Shown one piece after another: positions 1,364 to 46,985 of a stretch of 64,000 nucleotides of DNA; within the stretch, counting starts at the first letter, position 1; each line of letters starts with the position of its first letter. The stretch is from Clostridiales bacterium (GTDB lineage: Bacteria > Bacillota > Clostridia > Lachnospirales > Lachnospiraceae): contig JAAYNM010000083.1 of the NCBI GenBank assembly GCA_012520815.1, positions 31,508-95,507 of the forward strand, read 5' to 3'. Under the pieces are notes generated by a model, which ran no database searches, was not told the DNA's origin, and saw only the letters and a list, made by a program, of their open reading frames with translations. The translations under genes were made by a program, and so were the position numbers.

Positions 1364-3493
1364 ATGCTTGATAATAAAAAGTACCCTGAGCATATGGTTT
1401 TTGGACTTGATATAGGAACGAGAAGCCTTGTGGGCTCGGTTGGGTATATGGAAAAAAATAAATTTAACGTAATAGCCCATTATGTTAAAGAACATGATAC
1501 ACGAGCAATGTTAGATGGTCAGATCCACGATATACAAAAAGTTGGTGAATCTATTGACTTTGTCAAGCGTGAATTAGAAAATCAAATAGGACGACCTTTA
1601 AAAGAAGTATGTATAGCAGCGGCTGGTAGAGTTCTTAAGACTGTAACCGTAAGCGTCGAGACTGAGAGAACTGATGAATCAGCCATAACTAGCGAAGATA
1701 TTTATTCATTAGATTTATTAGGTATAGAAAAGGCATATGATATTATCAGAGAACAGTATCCAGATATAGAATTCTACTGTGTTGGATATTCAGTTGTCAA
1801 ATATTATATGAATGGCTATGTGATTAACAATCTAGAGGGACATAAGGCGAAAAAAATCAGTGCAGATGTCTTGGCAACATTCTTGCCCCAGGAGGTTGTT
1901 GAAGGGTTATATTCAGCAGTTTCTATTGCTGATTTAAAGGTTGCAAATCTTACATTAGAGCCCATAGCTACTATAAATATTGCCATCCCAGAACAGTTCA
2001 GATTACTTAATATTGCCCTAGTAGATGTTGGTGCTGGTACAAGTGATATATGTATTACAAAGGATGGAAGTATTGTAGCCTATGGCATGATTCCTCATGC
2101 TGGTGATGAGATTACAGAGGTGATTTTACACAAGTGTTTAGTGGATTTTAAGACAGCCGAGAAGATAAAGCTAAGTTCAATGAAGAATAAGGGATGTTCC
2201 TTTAAGGATATTATGGGATTATCCCACAAGCTTACCCCTGCAGATATAAAGGAAATGTATAAAGATACAGTAGAGACTATGACGCAAGAAATTGCTGACA
2301 AGATTATTGAACTTAATGGTGGAAAAAGTGTCAATGCTGTTTTTATTGTAGGTGGTGGCGGCAAAGCCTTTGGATTTACAAGTAGTTTAGCAAAATTTCT
2401 GTCTCTCCCAGAAGAGCGTGTGGCACTTAGAGGTGCGGAGGTTCTAAGAGATGTAAACTTCATTGTAGAAGGAGTAAAGAAGGATCCATTACTTGTTACA
2501 CCTATTGGTATTTGTATTAATTTCTATAACCAAAAGAATAACTTTATATTTGTAAACATAAATGATACAAGAATCAAACTATATGATAATGATAGACTTA
2601 CAGTTGTAGATGCTGCTATGCAAATCGGATTTCCAAATGAAGATCTATTCCCAAAAAGAGGAAAGGAACTTACCTATACGCTTAATGAAAAAGTGAGAAT
2701 GGTTCGAGGTTCAGTGGGAGAGGCGGCAGTCATTACAATAAATGGCAAAGAGGCAAATATTAATTCCAAGATATCAAAAAATGATAGAATTAGTATTATC
2801 CCATCCACTGTAGGCAATCCAGCTATCTTAAAGATTATGCAGTTAACTGAATTTAAAGAATCCATTTTTTTTGAAGTTAATGGTGTAAATATTGAATGTC
2901 CTAGAGTTGCCAATGTCAATGGAGAATTTGTTGTTTCCTCATATGAAATCAAAGAAGGCGACGTTATAAGTATATTAGATTATTATACAGTTAATCAAAT
3001 CATGCAATTTATGGACATTGACAGTACTGGAAAAGATATATATGTTAATGGTCATTTATCAACATTTGATGAACCTGTATATGCTAACTTTAAAGTTGAA
3101 ATTAAAGATACTGATTATCTCAAAAAAGATGATGATTTTGATATGCTCGTCGGTGGAAATTACGACGATGATAAAGATGATGAATTTAATGATAATGTTT
3201 TAGATGGAAGTGTAGTCGAGACAGAATCTGATAACGGTGGTAAGAAAAAAACCGCAAAAAAAGCTACACTTGTAAACGAAGTAAGTAATATAACCATTTC
3301 AGTTACAATAAACCAAACTGTGGTTAATTTATCAGGAAAAGCCTCCTACACATTTGTAGATATTTTGGATGTTTATCCGTTTGATACAAAAGTTGTAGGC
3401 GGAGATATTTTAATAGTTCGCATCAATGGAGAAGATGCAGGCTTTGCCTCTAGTATAAAGCATGGTGATATTTTGGAGCTATTCTGGCAGTAA
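1364..3493 (+). CDS. FtsA-like actin-fold ATPase with beta-grasp-like C-terminal repeats
   Basis: The first 370 residues or so match the FtsA/PilM group of actin-like ATPases: phosphate-1 loop GLDIGTRS (about 14-21), an SHS2/1C-type insert, phosphate-2 loop DVGAGTSD (221-228) and adenosine motif IVGGGGKAFG (328-337). FtsA proteins tether FtsZ to the membrane and are usually about 420 residues. This one has 709. The extra 340 residues hold repeated units with the pattern NG-x(8-12)-I-x(2-3)-D-x-I-x-I (at about 459-479, 518-538 and 687-707), which look like beta-grasp folds, and an acidic linker (about 586-625). The usual C-terminal amphipathic membrane helix is absent; the protein ends DILELFWQ. 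It may act in division or envelope assembly, but its role is inferred only. A good GGAAGGA site precedes the ATG. Confidence 0.75.
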   Translation: MLDNKKYPEHMVFGLDIGTRSLVGSVGYMEKNKFNVIAHYVKEHDTRAMLDGQIHDIQKVGESIDFVKRELENQIGRPLKEVCIAAAGRVLKTVTVSVETERTDESAITSEDIYSLDLLGIEKAYDIIREQYPDIEFYCVGYSVVKYYMNGYVINNLEGHKAKKISADVLATFLPQEVVEGLYSAVSIADLKVANLTLEPIATINIAIPEQFRLLNIALVDVGAGTSDICITKDGSIVAYGMIPHAGDEITEVILHKCLVDFKTAEKIKLSSMKNKGCSFKDIMGLSHKLTPADIKEMYKDTVETMTQEIADKIIELNGGKSVNAVFIVGGGGKAFGFTSSLAKFLSLPEERVALRGAEVLRDVNFIVEGVKKDPLLVTPIGICINFYNQKNNFIFVNINDTRIKLYDNDRLTVVDAAMQIGFPNEDLFPKRGKELTYTLNEKVRMVRGSVGEAAVITINGKEANINSKISKNDRISIIPSTVGNPAILKIMQLTEFKESIFFEVNGVNIECPRVANVNGEFVVSSYEIKEGDVISILDYYTVNQIMQFMDIDSTGKDIYVNGHLSTFDEPVYANFKVEIKDTDYLKKDDDFDMLVGGNYDDDKDDEFNDNVLDGSVVETESDNGGKKKTAKKATLVNEVSNITISVTINQTVVNLSGKASYTFVDILDVYPFDTKVVGGDILIVRINGEDAGFASSIKHGDILELFWQ

Positions 3494-40718: not shown

Positions 40719-41258
40719 TTCGTTTCCTTTAAATGTTGCTACATCAAATCCACCACTTAATAAATCTTGAAAATCACCTGAAATATCAACTGATTTTGGT
40801 GTAATGATAAATATGTAACTAGATACCTTTTGAAGATTGCCATCTATTGAATAACAAGAACCAGATGTAAAATCTATGATTCTTTGTGCTAAATCCACAT
40901 GTAATCCTTCTAAATTCAATACAACAGCACGTCCACTTAATAGTGTATCGGTAATTTCTCTTGCGTCATCCATATTTGCTGGTTTAATAACACAAACTTC
41001 CATAGATCCTCCTTTTTGGTTTCTCATTGGAACAATCTTGGCTGCTCCTCTTCCACCAAACCTTGGCTGCTTTGGTTGTTCTGCCTCAAAATCTCTTCTC
41101 TTTGCTTCTTCAAATCTTGAAATCTTACGTGCCGGTGCAGCTGCTATTTCATCTTCATCATCGTATTCATATTCATCATCATATTCATCGTAATCATCTT
41201 CATATTCATCATCATTCAACTTTAGTATGTTCAGGAATTTATCTCCAAATTTACTCAT
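40716..41258 (-). CDS. sepF: SepF, cell division protein
   Basis: SepF bundles FtsZ filaments and links them to the membrane. The 180-residue protein starts with a short amphipathic helix (MSKFGDKFLNILKL), has a long acidic, tyrosine-rich linker (about residues 15-40), and the C-terminal SepF core (VCVIKPANMDDAREITDTLLSGRAVVLNLEGL, RIIDFTSGSCYSI, SSYIFIITPK). The gene is next to yggS, as in Bacillus ylmE-ylmF. The acidic linker is more marked than usual. Confidence 0.96.
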   Translation of the reverse strand: MSKFGDKFLNILKLNDDEYEDDYDEYDDEYEYDDEDEIAAAPARKISRFEEAKRRDFEAEQPKQPRFGGRGAAKIVPMRNQKGGSMEVCVIKPANMDDAREITDTLLSGRAVVLNLEGLHVDLAQRIIDFTSGSCYSIDGNLQKVSSYIFIITPKSVDISGDFQDLLSGGFDVATFKGNE

Positions 41259-44909: not shown

Positions 44910-45215
44910 TTATCTTGTATCCATTACCTTAGACTTGATTTTATCCATTTTATCAACAAAAACCAATACTTCTGCCACAACACCATAAAGTTCTGGTGGA
45001 ATCATATCTCCAAGTTCCAATTTTGATAATGTCTTTGCCAATTTACTATCTTCATATAATGGAATATCGTTTTCATTTGCACCTTCAATGATTTTATCAG
45101 CCAAGATTCCCCTACCAGAGGCAATAACTGTAGGTGCCTCCTCTCCAGGATTATAAGAAAGAGCAACCGCAACTTTTGGATCATTATTTTTCTTTTTATA
45201 TAAATTACTTTCCAT
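44910..45215 (-). CDS. FlhX-like protein (soluble FlhB C-terminal homologue)
   Basis: A 101-residue protein that matches the cytoplasmic C-terminal domain of FlhB, the flagellar export switch: DPKVAVALSYNPGEEAPTVIASGRGILADKIIEGA and IPPELYGVVAEVLVFV. The cleavable NPTH loop of FlhB is here NPGE, so self-cleavage is not expected. In Bacillus the counterpart YlqH/FlhX sits next to a FliK-like gene and rnhB, as here. It may stand in for the FlhB tail in export. Confidence 0.87.
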   Translation of the reverse strand: MESNLYKKKNNDPKVAVALSYNPGEEAPTVIASGRGILADKIIEGANENDIPLYEDSKLAKTLSKLELGDMIPPELYGVVAEVLVFVDKMDKIKSKVMDTR

Positions 45216-45230
45216 ATACCATCATACCTC

Positions 45231-46985
45231 CTAGGCACGCACATCAAATGAATATCTTTTAATCGACATCTTTGGTCTATCTATTTCTAGCACCTTCTCA
45301 AATGGAGTTTTAGATGAAGATTTTTCCTCCATAAGTTCTACATCAAGCGTACAATTATATCCTAAGTTGTCCAGTCTGATTTTAAGTTCAGGTAAATGCT
45401 CTTCAATAATTACTTGTGACTCTATGTCCGCTATGGAAAATTTTGTACTTAAACTTCCGTTCTCTAAACGAATATTTACATCAGTTGCACCGAGATAATC
45501 CATGTCTAAATGCATGAAAGCTGTCAAAACATCTTTATCTAGCATTCGTCCATGGCTTTTATTAAATACGTATAATTCACCATTTTTTTCGCCATTTGAC
45601 AGTTTTAGCGGAAGTTGAACATATGAAGCCATTTGATTCATATCGTTCATAAAATTAAGGTTATTCTTGAGGTTTGATAAATTGTTTTGCAATTTTTCGC
45701 TGTTATTGCTATTATTGCTTAAATACTCTATCAAACGATTTGTCTTTTCTTCTATTTTGTTATATAGGAGTTTTACCTTATTTGCAGCTTCCTCGCCCTT
45801 CATAAGTTCCTCAGGTTTTAGAACAAACTCCTTTGATAGAGAAGCTTTAAAAAAATCTTTAAAAATCTTTGATTTTGTAAACATCTCTAATTCATCTTTT
45901 GGAAGTTCCTTAATAAAATTACTAATTACTTCTTTGTTAATCACAGAGAATTCTTTAAGTTTATTGATTAATCTAGTAGCCACATCTAACGTGTTTTCAT
46001 TAGTATCTATCGGCATTGCTTCTCCAGCTAGATATGCATTTATGCTTTTTATAAGACTTTTTGCTTCTTCCTTTAATGCTATTTCACTATCTATATTTTC
46101 CTCGAATAAAACACCCTTGGCTTGGTCAGTTATATCACTATCATCTAAAGTATTTATAAAACCATCATCTATTGCTACATTTATAAATGATTTATAGAAT
46201 GGATTCTCAACCTTCGTATCCTTAAATTCACCGATTAGATTTAAGATTGTATCCTTCATTTGATTTATATTAGTAGTCATATCACTTGGATTTGACCCAG
46301 AATCGCCTATGGTACTCTCGCTACTTGAAATGGATTGACCTATGAAATCACTTACTTCGTAAGCTATATTACTAAGTTCTCTTAGAATACTGCTTTCGTC
46401 GTTAACATAATTTTCAAACTGTACGATATTTTCATTTGAAACAGGTAACTCATGATTAATCAAAGAAACCACAGTGCTAGGATTAGCTTGTGGATAGCTA
46501 TTTATATTTTTAAACATCTCTAGAACTGCATTTTTATCAATAGGCATTTCATTTCTCATCATTTCCTTAATCATCTGCATATTCCCCTCCGTTACAGGAA
46601 TCCCGGCACTTTCAAGGGCCATAATTAATGGACTTGAAAATCTATTACTTACATTTAAGGACCTAATAAATACTTGTGTGCCATTATTTTCCTTTATTTG
46701 GAAATTGATATGATCACCAATGTTCATAGACGACGCATCTTGAGTCCTTGCTTGGAGCGTAGAATTATCCTCTAATAAAATCTTTATATAGCTATTACGT
46801 ACATCAATAATATCTCCACTCAAAACTGTCCCCTTTACCATATTTGCAATTTGCGCAGAAGTAGCTACCCTAGTCACTGGAACATTTCCTGCAACAGAAG
46901 TTGCATTTCCTGTGCCACCACTAGAGCTCCTAGAAATATTTGAACTAACTGAACTTGTAGTTGTGCTTAAACGTTTTACATCCAT
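45231..46985 (-). CDS. FliK-like/YlqG flagellar hook-length control-type protein
   Basis: A 584-residue protein, low in cysteine and mostly helical with polar low-complexity parts. The C-terminal 150 residues (LPLKLSNGEKNGELYVF, LDMDYLGATDVNIRLENG, FSIADIESQVIIEEHLPELKIRL) match the FliK C-terminal domain. The N-terminal part is Ser/Asn/Thr-rich. With the FlhX gene it is the ylqG-ylqH pair of Bacillus. It is not the main fliK in a flagellar operon but may belong to the flagellar system. The ATG has GGAGGTTATTTA upstream. Confidence 0.75.
   Translation of the reverse strand: MDVKRLSTTTSSVSSNISRSSSGGTGNATSVAGNVPVTRVATSAQIANMVKGTVLSGDIIDVRNSYIKILLEDNSTLQARTQDASSMNIGDHINFQIKENNGTQVFIRSLNVSNRFSSPLIMALESAGIPVTEGNMQMIKEMMRNEMPIDKNAVLEMFKNINSYPQANPSTVVSLINHELPVSNENIVQFENYVNDESSILRELSNIAYEVSDFIGQSISSSESTIGDSGSNPSDMTTNINQMKDTILNLIGEFKDTKVENPFYKSFINVAIDDGFINTLDDSDITDQAKGVLFEENIDSEIALKEEAKSLIKSINAYLAGEAMPIDTNENTLDVATRLINKLKEFSVINKEVISNFIKELPKDELEMFTKSKIFKDFFKASLSKEFVLKPEELMKGEEAANKVKLLYNKIEEKTNRLIEYLSNNSNNSEKLQNNLSNLKNNLNFMNDMNQMASYVQLPLKLSNGEKNGELYVFNKSHGRMLDKDVLTAFMHLDMDYLGATDVNIRLENGSLSTKFSIADIESQVIIEEHLPELKIRLDNLGYNCTLDVELMEEKSSSKTPFEKVLEIDRPKMSIKRYSFDVRA

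Follow-up and report, generated by a model that had tools for sequence, protein, structure and literature searches.

A long FtsA-type ATPase with ubiquitin-like modules accompanies the flagellum in Clostridia

Because databases name a group of long clostridial proteins FtsA or PilM, surveys of division genes in Clostridia may mistake them for the FtsZ anchor; a quoted literature passage on difficile gives ftsA as absent there. One such protein is encoded by a complete gene in the 64,000-nucleotide stretch analysed here (the window), from a contig of a gut-type Lachnospiraceae bacterium, in a 709-aa reading frame that is open exactly at positions 1364–3493 of the forward strand. Does it serve cell division, as its name implies, or something else? 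The first-pass annotation had proposed a division or envelope scaffold. This role was not supported: the distribution of the family and some of its gene neighbourhoods point to flagella and chemotaxis.

The AlphaFold2 model of the full-length protein (mean pLDDT 86.4, pTM 0.62; 75-sequence alignment) predicts an actin-like ATPase followed by two beta-grasp units, a disordered linker and a last beta-grasp unit. The aligned sequences came from a scan of related loci and are nearly all from Lachnospiraceae. The ATPase spans residues 11–385 (1394–2518, +), somewhat beyond the boundary at residue 370 that had been set by eye. Module A (residues ~393–480; 2540–2803, +; pLDDT mostly >85) and module B (residues ~500–582; 2861–3109, +) precede the linker (residues 583–640; 3110–3283, +; pLDDT <50), which is acidic, as first described, then lysine-rich, and varies in length among 25 diverse relatives. 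Module C (residues 643–709; 3290–3490, +; pLDDT mostly >90) closes the chain. In the model the chain terminates in a beta-strand, and an amphipathic C-terminal helix, as seen in seven canonical FtsAs, was absent in 7/7 family members compared (C-terminal hydrophobic moment 0.35–0.56, versus 0.52–0.78 in the canonical proteins), which agrees with the initial reading of the sequence.

We compared the ATPase domain with FtsA and with PilM (TIGR01175, PF11104; structures 2ych, 5eou), an actin-like ATPase of the same superfamily. The three nucleotide motifs noticed at first pass are invariant in the 25 relatives (DIGTR at 16–20, D-x-GAGTSDI at 221–229 and GGG at 330–332). Pfam FtsA matches residues 218–331 with 37.5 bits (cut-off 31.8). 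With the TIGR01174 ftsA equivalog model, residues 12–316 score 86.8 bits, about half of its cut-off of 175.85; TIGR01175 gives 42.4 bits against a cut-off of 133. The best Foldseek structures are FtsA (E ~1e-27, target-normalised TM 0.80–0.85 over ~400 columns; 0.82–0.85 for 7q6i, 7q6f and 7q6d) and PilM comes second, at 5e-23 and weaker, bearing out the early preference for FtsA over PilM. Solved FtsA sequences are the sole strong matches in the PDB sequence search, residues 11–285 are 24% identical to E. coli FtsA, and a viral structure library returned as top matches the Hsp70/actin superfamily alone. The protein thus resembles FtsA (TIGR01174; 7q6d, 1e4f, 4a2a) in an actin-like fold of ~390 residues, in its nucleotide motifs and in ~15–24% identity, but it carries a 325-residue beta-grasp tail in place of an amphipathic C-terminal helix. 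An MreB-like catalytic glutamate, E199, was dropped as a distinguishing mark because 17/22 canonical FtsAs share it.

A PilM-like role in assembling type IV pili would account for the second-ranked structural match, for PilM_2 Pfam matches (one over cut-off in a relative) and for the PilM annotation of an Anoxybacillus member. We nevertheless judge it very improbable, as FtsA fits better than PilM, no pilus genes were seen among the neighbours inspected, and 5/20 carrier genomes lack any PilC/GspF-type protein (PF00482), which leaves a link to type IV pili unsupported.

The tail was first read by eye as beta-grasp or SLBB repeats. This call was right in fold class, because the predicted tail matches ubiquitin- and ThiS-like proteins. 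When predicted alone (pLDDT 87.1), its Foldseek matches are linear tetra-ubiquitin (E 8e-8), bacterial multi-ubiquitin proteins, ISG15 and, weakly, ThiS, and weak Pfam TGS and ThiS matches fall at residues 515–538, in module B. SLBB proteins share the beta-grasp fold class, but none is among the 50 best structural matches of the tail; as modelled, the tail modules are closer to ubiquitin and ThiS than to SLBB. TM-scores to multi-ubiquitin structures are low because module orientations differ, and the relative orientation of the modules in the model is uncertain, given the low pTM and TM. Among the 25 relatives, N460 and D533 are invariant and the remaining NG/GD positions are mostly conserved; the module C motif VNG..V.L.GK..Y.FVDIFDYIDFDL is kept across the order. 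The tandem beta-grasp modules resemble ubiquitin/ThiS-like proteins, including bacterial multi-ubiquitin (9cd2, 9d5a), but are fused behind an FtsA-type ATPase, and the C-terminus is a strand of the IEIYW/ILELFWQ type, without the GG conjugation tail of ubiquitin-like modifiers.

To place the protein among FtsA homologues, we used an order sample of 196 genomes and a class (Clostridia) sample of 393, together ~560 Clostridia genomes. One long orthologue is present in each of 86/196 order genomes, and canonical FtsA over the TIGR01174 cut-off in 0/196. The class sample has the long protein in 95 genomes, canonical FtsA over cut-off in 85 and both in 31. A profile of the long family separates long proteins (>600 bits) from canonical FtsAs (<80 bits), with no intermediates. 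In a tree of the ATPase domain, 44 long proteins form one clade (SH-aLRT 99) and canonical FtsAs, with that of E. coli, stand apart (99), although the tree was built quickly, its branches are long and MreB roots it poorly. On sequence comparison, the coexistence counts, the profile separation and the clades make the long protein an ancient paralogue, separate from canonical FtsA and kept alone in this order, in line with the earlier suggestion of a different class. The family also extends to Bacilli: a plasmid search found a 719-aa member (WP_066327715.1; L235:14992–17151 in NZ_CP015439.1), annotated PilM, on a 258-kb plasmid of Anoxybacillus amylolyticus, in a chromosome-like aroA/ccpA–ytxJ–ytxH–murC region. 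The same search returned a family member in an Acetoanaerobium megarecord that has fliG too.

Could the long protein simply be a lineage-specific FtsA that tethers the FtsZ ring to the membrane in place of the canonical one? It has the FtsA fold, and the window's genome, like the rest of the order sample, has no canonical FtsA. The proposed search of this genome for a second, canonical ftsA found none, the other TIGR01174 matches there being two MreB-type proteins and DnaK. The first-pass annotation had held that such an absence, joined to a hidden membrane helix, would make this the long FtsA of the species. The absence was observed and the helix was not. Moreover, 31 other genomes carry canonical FtsA alongside a member of the same clade, so that the protein is more than a long species version of FtsA. 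E. coli FtsA R300 and E303, which lie in the FtsZ-binding subdomain (FtsA:FtsZ structure 4a2a), are kept in 22/22 canonical proteins of the class but are not conserved in the 44 long proteins. SepF is the usual alternative FtsZ tether. It is found in 191/196 order genomes, including this one, in which the SepF encoded in the window (40719–41258, −) is likely the FtsZ membrane anchor, and the four own-family genomes without either FtsA type, which also lack fliG, carry SepF and manage without the long protein. A tether role is, in our estimate, improbable.

The link between the long protein and the flagellum, by contrast, is strong. In the class sample, fliG is present in 95/95 long-protein genomes versus 154/393 overall (Fisher 2e-50), a co-occurrence that does not separate the flagellum from chemotaxis or motility-linked c-di-GMP. 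It persists when genera (52/52, 6e-27) or families (21/21, 2e-10) are counted, although counts at any of these levels fall short of a full phylogenetic test. In the order sample, 85/86 long-protein genomes have fliG; the lone exception (G024), with no detected fliG, is a 93% complete assembly. Within the protein's own family, 31 genomes have both genes, four have neither (G089, G096, G143, G178) and none is discordant (p 2e-5), a pattern that speaks against simple shared ancestry. The genome of the window contains fliG, and the window itself also carries an MCP gene. Flagella do not need the long protein, which is missing from 59 of the 154 class-sample genomes with fliG. Near-exclusive occurrence in flagellated genomes suggests that the long protein is probably a motility protein under a cell-division name. 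Published gene lists touch on the same association: genes listed as unique to Pseudobutyrivibrio include FtsA together with flagellum biosynthesis and GGDEF (PMC6912079), and an FtsA group, which may include canonical FtsA, is depleted in gut strains (26.1 vs 82.6%) among many flagellar genes (PMC4945068, Table 4).

That depletion table also holds purine and other genes, and could be taken to mean that the association is indirect, the long protein and fliG both being retained by bacteria that are free-living or whose genomes have undergone less reduction. We give this explanation little credence. The class sample contains no exception and the own family matches perfectly, whereas the control, canonical FtsA, has a far weaker link (fliG in 53/85 genomes); in family f13, moreover, the gene has flagellar neighbours.

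These neighbours occur in two arrangements. In one (L036), the order is cheA–cheW–cheR–cheB–gene–(FlgM-like)–flgN–flgK, in which the FlgM match is sub-threshold and the gene after flgK, without a Pfam match, resembles flgL by eye. In the other (L039), it is gene–MCP(−)–(flgB-like)–flgC–fliE–fliF, with flgB called by eye and fliG next on the same contig. Elsewhere, a GAF-GGDEF diguanylate cyclase gene lies directly downstream on the same strand in 23/108 loci (gap −38 to +66 nt, often overlapping), in families f16, f18, f20, f25, f42 and f65 and in Lachnospiraceae; examples with TM segments, judged by eye, are found at +1 in L044, L047, L196 and L215. CheW is a neighbour in f25. In f42 (L196 at −3, L200, L202, L224), the third gene upstream encodes a GAF-HD-domain protein and is followed by a glycogen synthase-like gene and nth. 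In the window, as in most Lachnospiraceae, the gene sits in a polA–coaE housekeeping locus and not in a flagellar one; the upstream coaE (671–1300, +; PF01121, synteny) serves as context only, and operon logic was set aside here, the polA–coaE neighbours being uninformative on function.

Such neighbourhoods also fit a protein that works in motility-linked c-di-GMP or chemotaxis signalling and organises cyclases or receptor arrays, not the flagellum itself. The downstream cyclase in at least six families, the upstream HD-domain GAF gene in f42, CheW in f25 and the che genes in f13 all speak for it, but neither most Lachnospiraceae loci nor f13 have an adjacent cyclase. We consider this fairly unlikely, and yet the most serious of the competing accounts; a division tether, a pilus protein and an indirect correlation are less likely readings.

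We favour, with moderate confidence, a flagella-associated FtsA paralogue, an actin-like scaffold that binds partners with its ubiquitin-like arms and acts through membrane partners on flagella or arrays. Its FtsA-type ATPase, lacking the FtsZ-binding residues and the membrane helix of FtsA, would probably be capable of binding ATP and of assembling into short filaments or oligomers. The three ubiquitin-like beta-grasp modules would serve as partner-binding arms, and the site would probably be the inner membrane, reached through those partners. In many lineages the partner may be the TM-GAF-GGDEF diguanylate cyclase of the adjacent gene, and in others chemotaxis or flagellar proteins. The scaffold would help to assemble, place or count flagella or chemosensory arrays; candidate steps are assembly, placement, number, chemosensory array organisation and c-di-GMP coupling. 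More broadly, it is in our view an even call whether a dedicated ubiquitin-armed actin-like ATPase, derived from FtsA or sister to it, serves to build, place or regulate the flagella of many Clostridia and of at least one member of the Bacilli, which would make it a hitherto undescribed class of flagellar factor; we found no paper describing an FtsA-like flagellar protein in the open-access literature. If the protein does serve flagella, motility has recruited an actin of the FtsA type, and a single gene becomes a testable candidate for how flagella are built, placed and counted. Because the genomic association is near-perfect, the prediction is cheap to test.

Three minor observations accompany this analysis. 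Four loci of family f24 (L216–L219), from genomes of ~1 Mb, encode tail-less FtsA-like proteins of 374–399 aa, which form a separate, long-branched clade next to divergent canonical FtsAs. Two records titled Alistipes and Muribaculum (L059, L108) hold clearly Lachnospiraceae-type copies and are probably mislabelled bins. In the window, a FliK-like protein (45234–46985, −; PF02120) is encoded among housekeeping genes, away from fliG, beside an FlhB C-terminal-like protein (44913–45215, −; PF01312).
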